Source: Clostridiales bacterium
GTDB lineage: Bacteria; Bacillota; Clostridia; Lachnospirales; Lachnospiraceae
Direction of reading: 5' to 3'
Length of the DNA: 45,681 bases
Assembly: GCA_012839295.1 (NCBI GenBank)
Contig: DUNO01000040.1
Location: 1 to 45,681, forward strand
Shown: in pieces, positions 19,544 through 28,377 of the stretch
Layout: each line of letters begins with the position of its first letter
How positions within the stretch are numbered: position 1 is the stretch's first letter
Program-made: the position numbers and the translations under genes
Notes under the pieces: model-generated
The model's database searches: none
Told to the model about the DNA's origin: nothing
Seen by the model: the letters and a program-made list of their open reading frames with translations, nothing else

Positions 19544-21991
19544 TCAATAACCGCTCAGCGGGTTAAAGTCAAACTGGAGGCCGCTTTTTGCAAATTGCTC
19601 GGAAAAATTAAAATAGCCTTCCAGATAGTCCTTGATTTCCACCAGCCTATCGTAATCCCTGTGCTTTAGATAAATAACCTGACGGAAAATATCATTTACC
19701 TTCGATATGCTTGCCGGAGCCGGACCGATCATGCTTATCTCTTCCGGCCCATCTTCAGGCTTCTCCCCAAGGCTTCCTCCCGGATTCTCCCCAAGGCTTC
19801 CTCCTGGCCTCTCTCCAGAGTTTCCTCCCGGATTCTCTCCAAGGCTTCCTCCTGGCCTCTCTCCAGAGTTTCCTCCCGGATTCTCTCCAAGGCTCCCCCC
19901 CAGATTCTCTCCGGCGCTTTGTCCTGGTGCTTCCACAATGCCCTGCTTTAGATTTTCAATATAATGCTTAACAGCGGCAGCAAGCCTGGAAGCCGATTTT
20001 GCCGCTTCCTCTTCCTCCTTTGACGTAACCAGCAGGAGTAAAATATGCGCCGCAGGAGGATACTGCATCAGCCTGCGGTACAGCATTTCCTGCTCATAGA
20101 AGGCCTCATAGTTACCCTCTGCTGCCGTAAGGATGCTGTAATGGTCCGGATGGTAGGTCTGAATGACCACCTCCCCCGGCAGCACATCCCTGCCTGCCCT
20201 TCCTGCGGCCTGGCACAGGAGCTGGAAGGTCCGTTCGCTGGCGCGGAAATCCCCCGTATATAAGGAAAGATCCGCTGCAATAATCCCTACCAGCGTCACC
20301 TTGGGAAAATCATGTCCCTTCACGATCATCTGGGTCCCGACTAAAATATCCGCCTGATGTCCTGAAAATGCTGATAAAACCGCTTCATGCCCCCCCTTAT
20401 TCCTGGTCGTGTCCGCATCCATACGGAGCACCCTGGCTTCCGGAAATTCCTTTTTCACCAATTCCTCAACCTTCTGGGTGCCGGTACCAAAGGCCGCAAT
20501 GTACTTTGAACCGCATTCCGGGCAGATATCAGGCTGCTTTTCTTCATGGCCGCAATAATGGCAAACCAGGCTTCTGTTATTATGGGCCGTAAGGGAAATG
20601 TCACAGTGGGGACATTTAACCACATAGCCGCAGCTCCGGCAGGATACAAAGCCGGCATAGCCCCGCCGGTTCAAAAAGAGCATGATCTGTTCCTTCTTAT
20701 TCAAGCGGTCCCTGATCAGCTCCTTCAACTTCCCGCTGAAGATGGACTTATTCTTTCTTTTTAATTCTTCACGCAAATCCGCAATCCATACCATGGGCGG
20801 CTCCGCTTCCTTCGCCCGTTTTGTCAGGGTATATAGCTTCATTTCCCCCTGCTTTGCCTTTAAATAAGCCTCCAGGGAAGGAGTTGCCGACCCGAGGACC
20901 ACGCAAGCCCCCGTAAGCCTCGCCCGTTCCACCGCCACCGGGGTAGCGTGATATTTGGGAACGGATTCACTCTTATAACTATATTCATGTTCCTCGTCAA
21001 TAATGATCAGCCCAAGCCTTTGGAAGGGGGTAAACAAGGCTGACCTTGGACCGATCATGATATCAATCTCACCATTTTTTGCACGGAGGCTCTGATCATA
21101 TCGTTCCCCCTGGGACATTTTTGAATTCATAATACTGATACGGTTTCCAAACCGCTTGTAAAAACGCATAACCGTCTGATAGGTTAATGCGATTTCCGGT
21201 ATCAGCAGGATCACCTGCTTCCCCATTGCAATGACGGAAGCGATCATTTCCATATATACCTCCGTCTTACCGCTCCCCGTGATCCCGTGTATCAGATAAG
21301 TCCGCCGTATCCCCTGCCGGTAATCTTCCAGAAAATCCTCCACGATATAGCTTTGTTCTTCATTCAGGCTGACCGGCTGGTATGCTTCTTCCTGTGCTTT
21401 GATCGGGTTCCGGTAGATCTGCTGCGAGGAAGTCCTGGTAACACCCTGCTTCTCCATTCCAAGTAAGGTTGCCCTCGGAATGCCCAGCTTGTTGATGACG
21501 ACATCATAATCCAAGGTTGGCTCCCTGAGAAGCGCTTCCAGAAGCCGTAGCTTTGCCTTGCTGTTTTTCTTCTGGTACTCAAAATATAGCCTGTGGGCCT
21601 CTTCGGTCCCAACGGCCAGCTGGACACTTCTTTGCTCCTTTATTTTAACCGCCTTCCGGACAGGAATAACGGTTTTCAGGGCATCATTCATTGTGCCGCC
21701 AAACTTCTCCTTGATATAGTAGGCAAGGTAGATCAGATGGCTTTCAATGACTGGTGCCCCTTCGACCACTTCATAAACAGGCTTGATACGTTCCGCGCCA
21801 ATTTTGGGCTCTGTCGATATTCCAACGATATATCCGTTGATCCTGCGGTTGCCCTTCCCCAGGGGAACTACTACAAGAGAACCTATGACTGCCTTTTCCT
21901 CCATCTCTTCCTGGATGGCATATTGGTATGTCTTGTCTAGATTTTCATGTGATATGTCTATAATGATATCTGCATAGTAACGAAAAGACAT
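19544..21991 (-). CDS. priA: Primosomal helicase PriA with repeat insert
   Basis: An 815-residue 3'-5' DNA helicase that restarts stalled replication forks. It has the N-terminal 3'BD and winged-helix region, then a DEAH-like helicase with GITGSGKTEVY and DEEHEYSYK. Next come a zinc-binding insert with pairs of Cys (CRSCGYVVKCPHCD, CHYCGHEE, CPECGS) and the second RecA lobe (QAAGRAGR). Before the C-terminal domain there is an unusual Gly/Pro/Glu-rich repeat insert (19758-19902). The ATG at 21991 is preceded by AAAGGAGG at an ideal distance; the frame upstream overlaps murE and is not used. It lies 28 bp after murE. Confidence 0.95.
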   Translation of the reverse strand: MSFRYYADIIIDISHENLDKTYQYAIQEEMEEKAVIGSLVVVPLGKGNRRINGYIVGISTEPKIGAERIKPVYEVVEGAPVIESHLIYLAYYIKEKFGGTMNDALKTVIPVRKAVKIKEQRSVQLAVGTEEAHRLYFEYQKKNSKAKLRLLEALLREPTLDYDVVINKLGIPRATLLGMEKQGVTRTSSQQIYRNPIKAQEEAYQPVSLNEEQSYIVEDFLEDYRQGIRRTYLIHGITGSGKTEVYMEMIASVIAMGKQVILLIPEIALTYQTVMRFYKRFGNRISIMNSKMSQGERYDQSLRAKNGEIDIMIGPRSALFTPFQRLGLIIIDEEHEYSYKSESVPKYHATPVAVERARLTGACVVLGSATPSLEAYLKAKQGEMKLYTLTKRAKEAEPPMVWIADLREELKRKNKSIFSGKLKELIRDRLNKKEQIMLFLNRRGYAGFVSCRSCGYVVKCPHCDISLTAHNNRSLVCHYCGHEEKQPDICPECGSKYIAAFGTGTQKVEELVKKEFPEARVLRMDADTTRNKGGHEAVLSAFSGHQADILVGTQMIVKGHDFPKVTLVGIIAADLSLYTGDFRASERTFQLLCQAAGRAGRDVLPGEVVIQTYHPDHYSILTAAEGNYEAFYEQEMLYRRLMQYPPAAHILLLLVTSKEEEEAAKSASRLAAAVKHYIENLKQGIVEAPGQSAGENLGGSLGENPGGNSGERPGGSLGENPGGNSGERPGGSLGENPGGSLGEKPEDGPEEISMIGPAPASISKVNDIFRQVIYLKHRDYDRLVEIKDYLEGYFNFSEQFAKSGLQFDFNPLSGY
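19758..19902 (-). repeat. Tandem repeat inside priA
   Basis: A 48-bp unit (16 residues, GGSLGENPGGNSGERP) is repeated twice and flanked by 24-bp half-units, giving six 8-residue blocks in frame. It sits in a loop between the helicase core and the C-terminal domain. Near-identical copies indicate recent expansion. Confidence 0.85.
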
Positions 21992-22019
21992 CTCATCCTC
22001 CTTTGTAGCCCTCTCCACT

Positions 22020-23516
22020 TTACCTTCCAGCCAAAATGTCAGCGATGAGCTCACGTTCATCCATATGGTGCTTCACACCATCTATTTCCTGGTAATCCTC
22101 ATGGCCCTTACCAGCCAATACGATGACATCGCCTTCCTGGGCATTGTCGATACAATACTTGATTGCCTGTTTACGGTCAATGATTTCGACATAGTTACCG
22201 GAGGCTTTTTTAACCCCCACAATAATATCATCAATGATGTCCTGGGGATTCTCGGTTCTTGGGTTATCTGAGGTCACTACCGTAAGGTCTGCCAGCCTTG
22301 ATGACACCTCGCCCATCTCAAACCTTCTGCTTCTGGAACGGTCTCCACCGCATCCAAAGAGGCACACCAGGCGTCTTGGATGGTATTCCTTCAATGTCGT
22401 AAGTAAGCTTTCCAGGCTCATTGCATTGTGTGCGTAATCGATCATCAGGGTATAATGTCCGGGAACCGGAACAAGCTCCACACGTCCCCTTACATTAACA
22501 TGCTTCAGCGCCCCTGCTATTTCCTCCTTGACCTTCTCCTCCGTAAGATCAGGACCTACAGCCAAATGCCTGCAAAGTGCAATGGCGCACAGGGAATTAT
22601 ATACGTTAAATTTTCCGGGTACGTTCATGGTTACATCCATATTGATTAGACCCTCTACTTTATAGGCAATTCCAAGGTAGCCGGGCCTTTCCACCAAATC
22701 AACCTCCGACGCACGGACGTCCGCTTCCTTCGAGAAGCCGAAGGTCTCTACCTGGCAGGTATGCCCCTCAAGAATCTCCTGGGCATGGGAATCATCAATA
22801 TTAATCAGGCCAAGCCTGCACTGCTTAAAGAGCTTGCTCTTACAACGGAGATAATCCTCAAAATCCTTATGCTCTGCCCCGCCGATATGGTCCGGCTCCA
22901 GGTTCGTAAAGATTCCATAGTCAAAGGTAAAGCCAGCCATCCGGTGGAGCATCAGTCCCTGGGAGGAGGCTTCCATCACCACGCATTCACAGCCCTCCTC
23001 CACCATTTCCGCAAAATATTTCTGCACCATATAGGACTCCGGTGTGGTATTATTTGCCGGTATTACTTTATTTCCGATGATTACTTCGATGGTTCCGATG
23101 AGACCCACCTTTTTTCCGGTATTTTCAAGGATTGATTTAATCATATAGGTGGTGGTGGTCTTTCCCTTCGTGCCTGTGATGCCTATGGTGGTCAGCTTCT
23201 CCGCCGGATGCCCGAAATAAGCTGCCGACAGATAGGCCAAAGCCAGGCGGCTGTCTTTCACCTTAATGATTGTAACGCCTTCCGGGTAGCCACCCTCCCG
23301 GAATACGGCTTCCCTTTCTACGATAATTGCCGCCGCTCCCTTAAGAGCAACCTCGTAGGCGAATTCATGCCCGTCCTTTACCGCTCCGGCAATGCATACA
23401 AATACAGAGTTATCCACTACCTTCCTCGAATCATACACCAGCTCCGTAATTCCAATATGGGTTTCTCCCTGCAAACAGGTATATTCTAACCGTTCCAACA
23501 TTTTGTCTAAAAACAT
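22020..23516 (-). CDS. murE: UDP-MurNAc-L-Ala-D-Glu:meso-diaminopimelate ligase
   Basis: A 498-residue cytoplasmic Mur ligase that adds the third residue of the wall peptide. The ATP site is GITGTKGKTTT; Mur-ligase landmarks ASSQGL, NLEPDHIGG and YAHNAMSLE follow. The DNPRTE motif is the established marker for meso-diaminopimelate rather than lysine specificity, so the wall is predicted to be of the DAP type. AAGGAG precedes the ATG. It is the first gene of the long housekeeping run and has its own promoter at 23596-23623. Confidence 0.95.
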   Translation of the reverse strand: MFLDKMLERLEYTCLQGETHIGITELVYDSRKVVDNSVFVCIAGAVKDGHEFAYEVALKGAAAIIVEREAVFREGGYPEGVTIIKVKDSRLALAYLSAAYFGHPAEKLTTIGITGTKGKTTTTYMIKSILENTGKKVGLIGTIEVIIGNKVIPANNTTPESYMVQKYFAEMVEEGCECVVMEASSQGLMLHRMAGFTFDYGIFTNLEPDHIGGAEHKDFEDYLRCKSKLFKQCRLGLINIDDSHAQEILEGHTCQVETFGFSKEADVRASEVDLVERPGYLGIAYKVEGLINMDVTMNVPGKFNVYNSLCAIALCRHLAVGPDLTEEKVKEEIAGALKHVNVRGRVELVPVPGHYTLMIDYAHNAMSLESLLTTLKEYHPRRLVCLFGCGGDRSRSRRFEMGEVSSRLADLTVVTSDNPRTENPQDIIDDIIVGVKKASGNYVEIIDRKQAIKYCIDNAQEGDVIVLAGKGHEDYQEIDGVKHHMDERELIADILAGR

Positions 23517-23634: not shown

Positions 23635-23767
23635 ATTTCACTCCAGATGCCCTGACACCTCCATCAGCCTTCCGTCGGTCTCAATCTGTATAGCACCGGC
23701 CTCATAGGTTATCCTGATGCTGCTTCCTGCTTCCTGCAGCCGCTCTAATAAATCCTGGTGGGGATGC
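23635..23767 (-). pseudogene. Duplicated 3' end of comEC
   Basis: These 133 bp match 25882-26014, the last part of comEC, at 121 positions with no gap by hand alignment. The encoded last 42 residues match ComEC except at four places and end at the same stop codon. The match begins 3 bp beyond the stop and ends abruptly after GGGGATGC. The open frame continues to 23826 with about 20 residues unlike ComEC, so no working protein is expected. It is the distal direct repeat that flanks the ATPase-nuclease cassette. Confidence 0.92.
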
Positions 23768-23852
23768 ATCCCTTCCACAACAAAAGCCGGCCCAGTTTCC
23801 CAAGTCGACTCTGTTGTAAACACCATTTAATAAACATAACGTTTGTACATAA

Positions 23853-24398
23853 TCAAAAAATAATAGGCACCGATGGAGAGCATAGGATATGGTTTCCATC
23901 GTCCCCTTTTGCGTTTGATTTCATAACTACCTTTACATACTTTATAAAGTCAAACAAATTTTCTGCTTTTATCTTAGAATGCTTTGATAACCTTTGAGCC
24001 AGAAAACGGCTCTTGGTATTGATTCCCCTCGGTATTTCCTGTCTTCCCGGGCTGACAATGAAAGCATTCACTATTTTCTGGCCTTTTATTAAGAAAACCA
24101 ATTCCTGCTCCTCTTCTAAATTCTTTAAAGTCTCTTCCAGCTGTATGAGTGCTTTGTCAATAATTGCTCCCTTAAGCTCAATTAAATGCGTTTCTTCCTT
24201 TATCTCATCATAGATTATAAAATCACATTTATTAATTCCTGCCGTCACATCAGCTATGATTCCTTTATCCACCTTAACCTTCCATATGGCATTTCCATTG
24301 GCCTGCAGATATAATTTTGTTTTCTCATCGGCCAGAGTAAACCTTTTTCCAGCCTCCTGTACCTCAAAATATGGTTCATATTTTTTCTCGATCTTCAT
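23853..24398 (-). CDS. Predicted PD-(D/E)XK-type nuclease partner of an AAA ATPase
   Basis: A 181-residue protein I cannot place in a named family. Residues 59-86 carry the layout of a PD-(D/E)XK nuclease core: Asp59 (in NKCDFIIYD), then Glu74-Leu-Lys76 (in HLIELKG), and Gln86 in the next helix (ALIQLEE). Similar spacing occurs in restriction-type and resolvase-type nucleases. No membrane segment or signal peptide is seen. Its ATG overlaps the end of the ATPase gene by 23 bp, behind a strong GGAGGAGG site, so the two are made together. The A/T-rich composition differs from the neighbours. The nuclease role is inferred from motif and context; it could also be an inactive regulator. Confidence 0.65.
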   Translation of the reverse strand: MKIEKKYEPYFEVQEAGKRFTLADEKTKLYLQANGNAIWKVKVDKGIIADVTAGINKCDFIIYDEIKEETHLIELKGAIIDKALIQLEETLKNLEEEQELVFLIKGQKIVNAFIVSPGRQEIPRGINTKSRFLAQRLSKHSKIKAENLFDFIKYVKVVMKSNAKGDDGNHILCSPSVPIIF

Positions 24399-25707
24399 CT
24401 TCCTCCTCCAGATAAAACAACTCCGTATAAGCTTTGTTTACTGTATCAGAGATCTCATCTATAGACTCCGTAATAATTTCGTGACTTTCTTTATCGATCA
24501 AATTTATAAAAACCGTTTGTTCCTTTGACTTTATCAATTTGCAAGCGAACAATTCCCCTTCTTTCACCAGCTTTCCCTTTCCGATGATTTTCTCCACCCT
24601 GTCCTTTGTTTTATCGCTTTGCAGCCTTCCCGCATATAGCAAATTATTCATACAGGTCAGAACATAGGGGCTATGTGTGGTTATGATAACACTGCTGCCT
24701 GTAACATTTGCAAATTGTATGATAAATTCAATCACCTGCTTTTGCAGTGTAGGATACAAATGCGCTTCCGGCTCTTCAATTACAATAAACGCTTTTTCAT
24801 CACGGAGCATTAAAATATATAATTGATTTAATAACCATAGCACTTCCTGTTGCCCCGATGAGGTAAAATTGATCGGAATCTTCTCATTGGAATTGTTAAG
24901 CTGTAAAAATTCCTTTCCCGGGGCATATAAATAATCTCCCTTCAAACCATTTACAAGGGATTCGACTACTTTACTTATATCAAATTTTCGTTCTGCAACA
25001 GGATAGTATTTATACGCCTGCGAAATTCCCATATCGAATTTTGACTGTATGCTCTCAATAAACTGCATGAATTTCCGGTTAATCAAGTCCATTGTATTAT
25101 AGTCTAATTTGGTTTTTTGATTTGTCATCAAGGTCATCAAACTTCTTCCAGCCGGAATATAATAGCACTGCATGTCATCATTTAGCATCCCGGATATTTT
25201 TCGGAAGAGCTCCTGATGCATACGCAGTCTTTCTGTTGTAGCAAAAGAAAAATTGGTTGAGGATTCTTTATTGGATAAATAAAAATCATATGCTTGTCCC
25301 TCATAAGCTTTCATATCCTTTTCAAATTCGGCACTAAAGTTAATCGACAAATAATTTTTACCATTTCGCTTCTGTAAAGCAACCACAGTCCAATAGCCTT
25401 CCTTATATTCATAGCGCAGCTCTAAGGTTTCCGGCAGATTCCAGCGGTATCCAAATAAATCTATGAAATAGTTTTCAATTTCCTGCCTGGTGGTTTTGGG
25501 AAATGTATCATCCATATCCGTTTTACCATCCAAAGAAATATTATATAAATACTCTACCAATATATCCCTCAAGGTTCTGAAAAAGAAAACCGCCTTGCTT
25601 ATCGTACTTTTTCCAGTGGCCTGTTCCCCGATGAATAAGTTTATCTTCTTAACTTCCATTTCAAACTTTTTAATCGGTCCCAGGGATGTTATATATATTT
25701 TTGCCAT
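24376..25707 (-). CDS. AAA family ATPase (OLD/AAA_15-like, SMC-type head, no TOPRIM)
   Basis: A 443-residue ABC/SMC-like ATPase. Walker A is GEQATGKS (27-34), the signature SSGQQ (283-287), Walker B FIVIEEPEAH (307-316) and the switch histidine is in TTHS (343-346). YIPAGRS (183-189) is also typical of this ATPase group. The C-terminal 90 or so residues are too short for the TOPRIM nuclease domain of OLD proteins, and no such motif is visible; nuclease activity would have to come from the overlapping gene. ATPase-nuclease pairs of this design (Septu, PARIS, Gabija) are antiphage systems, so a defence role is inferred. The gene has its own promoter and is richer in A/T: 19 of 60 bases are G or C at 25321-25380, versus 28 of 60 at 26221-26280 in comEC. 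Confidence 0.85.
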   Translation of the reverse strand: MAKIYITSLGPIKKFEMEVKKINLFIGEQATGKSTISKAVFFFRTLRDILVEYLYNISLDGKTDMDDTFPKTTRQEIENYFIDLFGYRWNLPETLELRYEYKEGYWTVVALQKRNGKNYLSINFSAEFEKDMKAYEGQAYDFYLSNKESSTNFSFATTERLRMHQELFRKISGMLNDDMQCYYIPAGRSLMTLMTNQKTKLDYNTMDLINRKFMQFIESIQSKFDMGISQAYKYYPVAERKFDISKVVESLVNGLKGDYLYAPGKEFLQLNNSNEKIPINFTSSGQQEVLWLLNQLYILMLRDEKAFIVIEEPEAHLYPTLQKQVIEFIIQFANVTGSSVIITTHSPYVLTCMNNLLYAGRLQSDKTKDRVEKIIGKGKLVKEGELFACKLIKSKEQTVFINLIDKESHEIITESIDEISDTVNKAYTELFYLEEEDEDREKI

Positions 25708-25766
25708 GCCTCTATCCCCCTTAATTTTTTAGTTCATGCAATTAATTTTTACACCTGTTTATCCCA

Positions 25767-25795
25767 ATTATATAATATACAAATTTATTAAGCAA
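25767..25795 (-). promoter_or_regulatory. Promoter of the ATPase-nuclease pair
   Basis: On the minus strand TTGCTT (25790-25795), a 17-bp spacer and a perfect TATAAT (25767-25772) stand about 60 bp before the ATPase start. The surrounding 177 bp between comEC and the ATPase are very A/T-rich and hold no other gene. Confidence 0.7.
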
Positions 25796-25884
25796 TGAAG
25801 ATTTCACAATGAAGATTCCCAACATCAGTAAAATCATAACATCATTTCCCAATATTCTGCCCGGCATTCCCATCAATTTTAATT

Positions 25885-28377
25885 TCACTCCAGATACCCT
25901 GATACCTCCATCAGCCTTCCATCGGTCTCAATCTGTATAGCACCGGCCTCATAGGTTATCCTGGTATCACTTCCCGCCTCCTGCAGCCGCTCCAATAATT
26001 CCTGGTGGGGATGCCCATAGCGGTTATTGGAGCCACAGGAAATAAAGGCATACCTTGGCTGCAATGAAGATAGAAATTCATCGGAGGTAGAGTTCTTTGA
26101 CCCATGATGGGCGACCTTCAGGATATCATATTCCATCCGGGGCTTAAATCCACTGGGCCCATCATCTCCCCACAAGGCCTCATCTGTCAAATTCCTAAGA
26201 AGGGCTGGTTCCTGTTCCTTTCCTATATCCCCGGTGAGAAGCAGATCAAATTCACCATATCTCACGCTAAAGACAGCGGAATAGGAGTTGGTATCAGGAG
26301 CCTCAACCCCTTCGGAGGGATGCAGGCAGAACAGGGTCAGATCCCCATCCACAATCTTATCCCCTGCCTTACAATAGCTGACTGCTATCTTCTTCTCCTT
26401 GGCTAAGGCTTCCATCTCCAAGTACCCTTGATCCTTATTCGATATCTCCGGCAAGACCAGATTCCTGATCCTAGTCTGCCCGTCCTCCATCAGCTCCTTT
26501 AACCCGTTAATATGATCCGCATCAGCATGGGTCATGATGACATAGGTAAGCTCATCGGTTCCCTGTGACAAGAGGAATGGCTTGATCCGATACTTTCCCA
26601 CATTCATTACATCCGTACTACCACCGTCGATTAAAGCCGTCATCCCACCCTCATGCTCTAAGTAGATGGAATCTCCCTGCCCTACATCCAGGATGGTAAC
26701 CCTAAGGCCTGCATGGCTTTGAGGCAGGATCAGCAATATGGAGGCCAGCAAGGGCAGCAAGAGGCATAGCTTCTTATTACAATGCTGCGTTGCCCAATGC
26801 TTCATTGTCGCATTATCCTCAGTTTCATTCTTTGCCGATTCATCCTTTGCTGCCTCATCCCTTGCCGCCCAACGATTGCTTGTCCAACAAAAGAGGACAA
26901 GGAGTATTATATACAGCACCATTTGCAACGCCCCCGGCTTCCCAACCGTGACCAAATTGCCCGGCAGGGCGCTGCCCACCCTGCAGACCCATTCGTAGAA
27001 TTTCAAAATATAATTAGCCCCTCCCACACAGAAAATGCCAAGGGGAAGATAAACCACTCCCAGGATTCCCGCAAAGATAGAGGTCAGGGTCAATATGGTA
27101 ACAAAGGGGAGAATGATTAAATTTACAAGAATTCCATAGAGGGGAAGCTGATAATAGAAATAAATGACGATCGGTGCCGTAGCCAGCTGGGCGCTGGTGC
27201 TGACATAAATACTCTCCAGAATAATATGCTTTTTTTGGAATAACTGCCTAAAGCAGGGCTGGATTAGGGCAATGCCCAGCACAGCGCCGTAGGATAACAA
27301 AAAACCGGCACTAAACACCTGCAGCGGATTTTGCAGCAGGATGAGGAAGGCACTGAGGGACAATGCGCTCAGCATGTCATAGGTTTTGCCTGCCGGGGAA
27401 GCCAGCAGCATAATTGTCATCATCACAACTGCCCGGTTTGTAGATACACTGAAATTCGTAAGTACCCCGTAGCAATACAGAATAAAGATTGTGACAAAGG
27501 TTGAAATGAATATCGGGACCTTCAGACCTTTTAGCACCGCAAATACAAACATGCCGATCAGGGAAACATGCAGGCCGGAAATCGCAAGGATATGGGATAT
27601 CCCATTCTGCTGATACAGGGTCTTGACCTCATCCCCCAGCAGATACTTTTCTCCCAGCAGCATTGCAACCAATGCCCCGGACTCCTTTTCCGAAAGGATG
27701 GTATCATATACCTTAATGAGTCTTTCTTTTATGTGGTCCAGTACGGAATGAAACTCGGAATAACGGCCGTCTGTCATGGTTATGGCTTTGGCCTTAAGCT
27801 TAAAGTCGATATTCTCAATTTCATAATAGAATTGTTCATTGAATTGGCCTGGATTTGTGGCCTGAGAAAATTTCTGGAGTGTCCCCTTTACGGCGATTTC
27901 ATTGCCGACCCGGTAATTCGTTTGGTGATCGAATGGGCCAGCAGGGGATGCGGGACTGGCCGTTGTATCCTCATTGCAAAATACAAGGATTGCTTCACAC
28001 CGGTAGGTATCCCCCTCCGGCAGGGTTACTTTATTTTTCTTTAGATAAACCGCCTTTCCCGAGGGCTTTTGTACTATCAGGCTTATCTTCCCGGACACCT
28101 CACAGTAGGTTTTCTGGTCAAAGGCATCATAGAGCGCAGGCTTCACCAGCCGCCCTCCCATGGCCAGAAATCCCAGAAGCAGGATAAAAGGCAGTGACCA
28201 CAGGAATTTATCCTTCGGGCTTACCACTTTCCATTTGGCCCTGTACATACCTAGATAGATGCAGAGCAAAAGTGATAATACCAGAAGGCTTACTATAGAA
28301 ACCGAAAAATGCCGCCAAGCCAGATACATCCCAAGCAAAAAGGAGGCCAGTATCCATATGAGTGGACGCTTGATCAA
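25885..28377 (-). CDS. comEC: DNA uptake channel protein ComEC/Rec2
   Basis: An 830-residue polytopic protein that carries single-stranded DNA across the membrane during natural transformation. It has the N-terminal membrane segments and extracytoplasmic OB-like domain, then the Competence core with HILAISGLHVSLIG, many further membrane spans, and a C-terminal metallo-beta-lactamase-like domain. The metal motif reads THADADH, and HHGSKNSTS follows later. It is intact and normal in length. The start is TTG, 12 bp after the GerMN gene stop and behind GGGGGTGAG, so translation is probably coupled. Its last 130 bp are duplicated at 23635. Confidence 0.95.
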   Translation of the reverse strand: MIKRPLIWILASFLLGMYLAWRHFSVSIVSLLVLSLLLCIYLGMYRAKWKVVSPKDKFLWSLPFILLLGFLAMGGRLVKPALYDAFDQKTYCEVSGKISLIVQKPSGKAVYLKKNKVTLPEGDTYRCEAILVFCNEDTTASPASPAGPFDHQTNYRVGNEIAVKGTLQKFSQATNPGQFNEQFYYEIENIDFKLKAKAITMTDGRYSEFHSVLDHIKERLIKVYDTILSEKESGALVAMLLGEKYLLGDEVKTLYQQNGISHILAISGLHVSLIGMFVFAVLKGLKVPIFISTFVTIFILYCYGVLTNFSVSTNRAVVMMTIMLLASPAGKTYDMLSALSLSAFLILLQNPLQVFSAGFLLSYGAVLGIALIQPCFRQLFQKKHIILESIYVSTSAQLATAPIVIYFYYQLPLYGILVNLIILPFVTILTLTSIFAGILGVVYLPLGIFCVGGANYILKFYEWVCRVGSALPGNLVTVGKPGALQMVLYIILLVLFCWTSNRWAARDEAAKDESAKNETEDNATMKHWATQHCNKKLCLLLPLLASILLILPQSHAGLRVTILDVGQGDSIYLEHEGGMTALIDGGSTDVMNVGKYRIKPFLLSQGTDELTYVIMTHADADHINGLKELMEDGQTRIRNLVLPEISNKDQGYLEMEALAKEKKIAVSYCKAGDKIVDGDLTLFCLHPSEGVEAPDTNSYSAVFSVRYGEFDLLLTGDIGKEQEPALLRNLTDEALWGDDGPSGFKPRMEYDILKVAHHGSKNSTSDEFLSSLQPRYAFISCGSNNRYGHPHQELLERLQEAGSDTRITYEAGAIQIETDGRLMEVSGYLE

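Follow-up and report, generated by a model that had tools for sequence, protein, structure and literature searches.

A probable WonAB-type pair of an OLD-like ATPase and a small nuclease-like protein beside comEC in a Lachnospiraceae relative

The window, by which we mean the whole 45,681-nucleotide stretch of DNA that was analysed, comes from a relative of Lachnospiraceae and carries a compact cassette of two overlapping genes, which we read, with a probability of about 0.72, as a WonAB-type abortive-infection system directed against phages. One gene encodes an OLD/SMC-like ABC ATPase and the other a small protein that, judging from its sequence and predicted structure, is likely, short of proof, to be a PD-(D/E)XK nuclease. 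The cassette makes a good candidate for defence, though the kind of system is not new. According to the available part of the original description (Adams et al. 2025, PMC12137116), which is repeated in the available part of PMC12409358, WonAB is a prophage-borne pair of an OLD-type ABC ATPase and a small PD-(D/E)xK nuclease, both of which are required for protection, and it aborts infection, apparently by a stop in translation. The features of the window's pair are as follows.

25767..25795, minus strand: possible promoter, TTGCTT-17-TATAAT, picked out by eye and absent from the list of a consensus scan
24376..25707, minus strand: OLD/SMC-like ABC ATPase, WonA-like, 443 aa (ORF, Pfam AAA_15, invariant residues, model, Foldseek)
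24376..24398, minus strand: 23-nt overlap of the ATPase and small-protein genes, with GGAGGAGG directly 5' of the second ATG (sequence)
23853..24398, minus strand: small putative PD-(D/E)XK-type protein, WonB-like, 181 aa (ORF, invariant residues, model, profile alignment with HsdR-type domains)

The coordinates, strand and 23-nt overlap of the pair had been read correctly in an earlier note on this DNA, as ORFs and sequence confirm. The single promoter proposed there is only plausible: a candidate could be picked out by eye, but it did not appear in the consensus scan, which returned 13 promoter-like sites in the region compared with 9.7 in shuffled sequences and placed both promoter-like and terminator-like sites at chance level. 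An Rfam search of the region gave no match. The foreign composition of the module was evident, with a GC content of 36.5% against 46.1% for the window, and the two genes have the lowest GC among the 35 window ORFs listed.

The ATPase (Pfam AAA_15, 2.5e-28) has a complete SMC/OLD-like head without a TOPRIM domain, as had been claimed. Read from the sequence, the motifs that we take to be Walker A (G27-EQAT-G32-K33-S34), the signature (SSGQQE, 283-288) and Walker B (IEEPE, 310-314) are present, together with H345, and K33, R188, E312 and H345 are invariant in 76/76 rows of the ATPase alignment (A4), from which four ORFs shorter than 380 aa (L046, L078, L081, L093) were left out. The single-chain model is confident (pLDDT 92.3) and ends after the head with a helix (413-442), which leaves no room for a TOPRIM domain. 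Among solved chains, a sequence-profile search places an OLD-family nuclease, PtuA from retrons and Septu, and AriA closest; Foldseek places PtuA (retron and Septu), Rad50 and AriA closest, at low TM-scores of about 0.3-0.4 relative to the query. Among PADLOC models, AriA scored best (2.6e-30), followed by PDC-M56A (2.1e-23) and PDC-M29A (2.9e-20). We discounted AriA as the identity of the ATPase, since its model (373 positions) covers the stretch that Pfam AAA_15 (374 positions) covers, at nearly identical profile coordinates, and also since the partner protein lacks a match to AriB. In an ATPase tree whose bootstrap support had not settled, the window's protein groups with sequences from goat-gut Lachnospiraceae, Eubacterium, Fretibacterium (Synergistota), Brachyspira (Spirochaetota) and Desulfitobacteriaceae. 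This grouping across phyla fits transfer, with the caveat that bins may hold foreign contigs.

For the small protein, the earlier note had named Asp59, Glu74-x-Lys76 and Gln86 as standing in nuclease order, and all four are invariant in 80/80 rows of its alignment (A3); Asp44 is kept in 79/80. Across the larger set of 89 small-protein ORFs, Glu74, Lys76 and Gln86 are present in all 89, Asp59 in 88 (with one gap) and Asp44 in 87. The single-chain model (pLDDT 91.4) places Asp59 just before a strand (60-64), Glu74 near the end of the next strand (69-75), Lys76 after that strand, and Gln86 in a helix (80-96), which is followed by a strand (109-116) and a further helix (128-140). This order of strands and helices is the one expected of a PD-(D/E)XK core.

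Direct matches of the small protein to described families were faint. It matched nothing in Pfam or NCBIfam, a sequence search of the PDB returned one chain at E=0.25, and its sole PADLOC match, to PDC-M29B, was weak (E=0.0061). When the E limit in Pfam was set to 0.1, one or more of the 80 members matched a total of 45 families. The families that recurred most (HSDR_N_2, DUF2726, HSDR_N, PDDEXK_9, NucS_C, SduA_C, SfsA, C2185-like_N and RsgI_M) were each matched by 2-4 members, and the best HSDR_N match reached 5.6e-5. The first seven of these families we take to belong largely to the PD-(D/E)XK superfamily, while C2185-like_N and RsgI_M are presumably others. Aligned with a profile of HsdR-type domains, built from seven domains of relatives after two of nine matches below the family cut-off had been left out, the small-protein profile scored E 1.7e-4 with a probability of 50%, and the register places Asp59, Glu74-x-Lys76 and Gln86 opposite the D, E-x-K and Q of HsdR; as a control, the same profile scored 0.57 against the ATPase profile and 0.41 against another ATPase set. 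Foldseek of the model against the PDB and viral models found nothing at E <= 0.001. Its weak matches include PD-(D/E)XK proteins (the Cas4-like ACE1, FokI, SdaI and several viral ones) beside many unrelated folds, and we did not count them as support. Structure prediction thus yielded a confident model but the fold search no significant match, and the predicted nuclease fold accordingly rests on residue conservation, secondary-structure order and weak profile matches.

Used as the sole query, the small protein retrieved no relative from genome contigs, viral contigs, plasmids or phages, and relatives were therefore gathered through the ATPase; with other family members as queries, plasmids gave none and phages gave two unannotated records. 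A profile of four ATPases yielded 61 viral-contig loci and 403 confirmed genome loci, of which the best 80 were taken; all of these were chosen by the ATPase and not by the small protein. At these loci a small protein lies nearby in 82/89 cases in which the ATPase ORF scores at least 120 bits and in 0/15 cases at 40-120 bits, a count that is not wholly independent because the partner model, seeded with four sequences from the window's family, was refined on the same loci. The count omits genome loci L033 and L072 and 35 viral loci, at which no ATPase ORF passed the profile search. The starts of the 82 small-protein genes range from 86 nt upstream to 396 nt downstream of the end of the ATPase gene. 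Among the remaining ATPase ORFs, one ends at a contig edge and six lack the partner (L011, L020, L063, L076, L077, L079); at L063, a 152-aa ORF with a loosely similar motif lies downstream. The small-protein alignment comprises 80 rows, ten of the 89 ORFs having been left out: L146 and L001 (the window's own copy, replaced by P0002), L147 (which seems identical to L012), L055 (a fragment), L086 and L088 (seemingly near-copies of L095, by length and score), L002-L004 and L148.

The co-occurrence of the two genes elsewhere, together with their invariant residues, supports the view of the pair as a defence-like module of an ATPase and a putative PD-(D/E)XK-type protein; it is these parts, their conservation and their linkage that we observe directly. 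The distribution of the pair is patchy, spans many phyla and includes viral contigs, where twelve loci carry it, three of them apparent near-copies. The small protein was found in 3/298, 2/390 and 4/397 other genomes (overlapping samples searched with different queries) and in 0/33 other genomes of the genus, many of which are incomplete. Two loci with the pair (L019, L026) come from Selenomonadaceae, which we take to be the family of Anaerovibrio. Profiles of the Lachnospiraceae group (four members of the window's family) and of fifteen mostly proteobacterial or viral-contig members align end to end, at E=2.7e-18 for the small protein and E=6.6e-66 for the ATPase. Neighbouring ORFs of the 80 loci were listed (133 upstream, 144 downstream) and scanned (132 and 136) after leaving out one upstream and two downstream ORFs longer than 1200 aa and six more downstream (five long, one short). 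They match models of type I, II and III restriction-modification, DitA, AbiLi and PDC at 1e-15 or better, as raw counts of single members (two at most per model) among the first 25 of the 112 and of the 73 models listed.

The cassette lies between comEC and a duplicated 3' end of the same gene, with the following borders.

25885..28377, minus strand: intact comEC, the 3' end of which forms the upstream border of the cassette; matched in 33/34 genomes of the genus
23768..23852, no strand assigned: 85-bp border between the putative nuclease gene and the comEC remnant
23635..23767, minus strand: partial second copy of the comEC 3' end, from codon 788 to just past the stop, 133 bp, 91% identical
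22020..23516, minus strand: murE homologue, named from similarity; downstream border of the hotspot, with counterparts that follow comEC or comEC 3' pieces in genomes G682, G683, G699, G706 and G709

The earlier note had proposed a repeat-flanked insertion, and the 133-bp, 91% identical repeat (23635-23767 and 25882-26014) proves to be the comEC 3' end, which, with the foreign composition, bears out acquisition by insertion. The two copies differ at 12 of 130 nt, 8 of them third positions, and 6/10 changed codons are silent, as if, on these small numbers, the two ends had diverged as parts of working genes before meeting at this locus. The 85-bp border has no second copy in its own genome and is unlike the element ends of sister genomes.

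Of the 34 genomes of the genus, 8 are listed with comEC 3' pieces apart from the gene: the window's own and G682, G691, G694, G699, G704, G706 and G709. The pieces of G699 and G706 could stem from a contig break, and in G709 comEC is split between two contigs rather than duplicated. In sister genomes, comEC copies are interrupted at about codon 785 by elements, two of which have large serine recombinases in their vicinity. In G682, G691 and G709 the tails begin at codon 785 after a common end (88-95% identical over 40 nt), and the pieces of G691, G704 and G706 begin at codon 752 after a second common end (78-90%); to the eye, these two ends look alike. The 40 nt before the window's comEC piece are only 10-15% like those of the codon-785 tails and 17-28% like those of the codon-752 group. 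Insertion of the same element as in the sister genomes is therefore not borne out by the ends, and the window's cassette, which sits within three codons of the codon-785 site without that end, shares the place.

The recombinases are three ORFs about 3 kb from comEC tails, two in G682 and one in G709 (sister loci L179-L187). Pfam assigned an IS200-like transposase, glycosyl hydrolases, a serpin and others among the ten gap ORFs tested of 72 listed, and no defence-like ORF among the same ten. G682 carries an IS200-like transposase gene both after intact comEC (L179:2827-3585) and after the displaced tail (L180:8674-9432), with 98% identical proteins. The comEC-murE gap looks like an integration hotspot, which may be a fresher finding than the defence pair itself. 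The available part of PMC11472951 does not describe a site of this kind.

Taken jointly, these observations permit a more speculative reading, which we consider possible but doubtful. The comEC 3' end (codons ~785-788) would serve as a dedicated integration hotspot in the genus, at which incoming elements, in some cases equipped with paired large serine recombinases, provide a new comEC 3' end and leave the old one behind; a minimal cassette without a recombinase, consisting of a WonAB-type pair and a spare comEC tail, would have come by that route. In addition, the nucleases of the window's clade, which are longer (169-216 aa), may differ from WonB in the target that they recognise. If true, defence would be traded through a gene for DNA uptake while comEC stays intact.

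Two repeats lie elsewhere in the window. A priA-like gene (19544-22060) contains a tandem repeat at 19756-19912 (24-nt unit, 6.3 copies) that codes for a Gly/Glu-rich stretch, around which the alignments obtained by tblastn with PriA of G706 and G709 are interrupted, and the contig start (1-194) holds a perfect 87-bp tandem repeat of 2.2 copies.

By analogy with WonAB, we propose that a dimer of the ATPase would hold, stabilise and license the nuclease, seated on the C-terminal extensions of the dimer. A phage signal would change the state of the ATPase, and the nuclease, acting together with it, would cut an essential cellular RNA, most likely a tRNA or rRNA, upon which translation would stop and the infected cell would yield no phage. 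Trigger, target and protection alike are here inferred from WonAB. A restriction-enzyme-like variant, in which the ATPase acts as a sensor of phage DNA and the PD-(D/E)XK protein attacks DNA, by degradation or nicking, without any RNA target, would suit the Rad50-like head and the predominance of DNA nucleases (HsdR N-terminal domains, NucS, Shedu) among the small protein's weak profile relatives. We nevertheless consider it improbable, as WonAB leaves genomic DNA intact and inhibits translation (available text of PMC12137116) and Septu, with a related ATPase, is reported to cleave a tRNA (available text of PMC13096335).

Retention of a mobile element by a toxin-antitoxin or addiction module, the ATPase merely sequestering a toxic nuclease as has been proposed for PARIS, seems slightly less probable still. 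Such a module would account for the small overlapping gene of a presumed toxic nuclease, for the location in a mobile-element hotspot and for AriA being the best PADLOC model of the ATPase, but the partner has no AriB match, and overproduced WonB is toxic only with active WonA, which its authors take to exclude simple sequestration (available text of PMC12137116). The Rad50-like head would also fit a cellular repair or processing complex without a defence role; given the absence of the pair from all 33 other genomes of the genus, its rarity elsewhere and its foreign composition, we regard this as very improbable. The WonAB-type abortive-infection reading therefore remains the one we favour. 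On this reading, a defence family validated only recently and still open as to its mechanism gains a divergent member in a Lachnospiraceae relative, and the 80-row map of invariant residues points to mutants with which the licensing of a small nuclease by an OLD-type ATPase could be examined. In the genus, further cargo, defence or other, could be sought at a concrete place, the comEC-murE gap.

Compared with known systems, the window's pair shares an ATPase head with Septu, PARIS, Gabija and retron-associated PtuA. The effector is HNH in Septu, TOPRIM-like in PARIS, and TOPRIM in cis plus a helicase in Gabija; in contrast, that of the window is a small PD-(D/E)XK-type protein. The distinction from these three systems drawn in the earlier note held, as PtuB, AriB and GajB are not among the 14 families matched by members of the small-protein alignment at 0.01; one member matches GajA at 0.009. 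PD-T4-4, called similar in organisation to WonAB in the available text of PMC12137116, is close in its ATPase, with PD-T4-4_A matching 73/76 ATPase members at 1e-10 or better; membership was rejected, since PD-T4-4_B matches 1/80 small proteins (0.0087) and does not match the window's P0002 at E <= 1.

Searches of defence collections did match both genes to the two-gene PADLOC entry PDC-M29, model A well (2.9e-20) and model B only weakly (0.0061), although other ATPase models (AriA, PDC-M56A) score higher. Across the family, PDC-M29A matches 76/76 ATPase members and two PDC-M29B models match 45/80 and 11/80 small proteins. PDC stands for 'phage defence candidate' (available text of PMC11514479); a literature text search for 'PDC-M29' returned nothing, and there it is not a tested system. 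Small-protein members also weakly match PDC-M47B and PDC-M56B besides PDC-M29B, which hints at a wider group of ATPase and small-nuclease pairs.

The closest counterpart by design is WonAB, known to us by its published description (available text of PMC12137116): an OLD-type ABC ATPase followed by a small PD-(D/E)xK protein in the same order and of the same sizes, carried on prophages or islands. WonAB protection is abolished by K34A, R182A, E300A and H333A in WonA and by K71A in WonB (PMC12137116, available text), and these residues would correspond to K33, R188, E312 and H345 of the window's ATPase (76/76 rows) and K76 of its small protein (80/80 rows), with the same E-to-H spacing of 33 in both ATPases; the exact numbering of WonA occurs in none of the pairs fetched, and WonA and WonB are set beside the window by description only. 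The differences are that WonAB has been described mainly in Gram-negative hosts, with a nuclease of 16.1 kDa, whereas the window encodes 181 aa in a Lachnospiraceae relative. The same text relates WonAB closely to the 'OLD-ABC ATPase + Novel REase' operon of an earlier survey (Krishnan et al. 2020), by description identical in architecture and with a reference pair from Anaerovibrio; in connection with that kinship it gives a frequency of 0.96% of genomes, which is of the same order as in our own samples. The pair is accordingly not 'undescribed', as had been suggested: it matches a named system in design, one with phage data, and, that design having been published, it looks like a divergent member of the WonAB type rather than a new kind of system.
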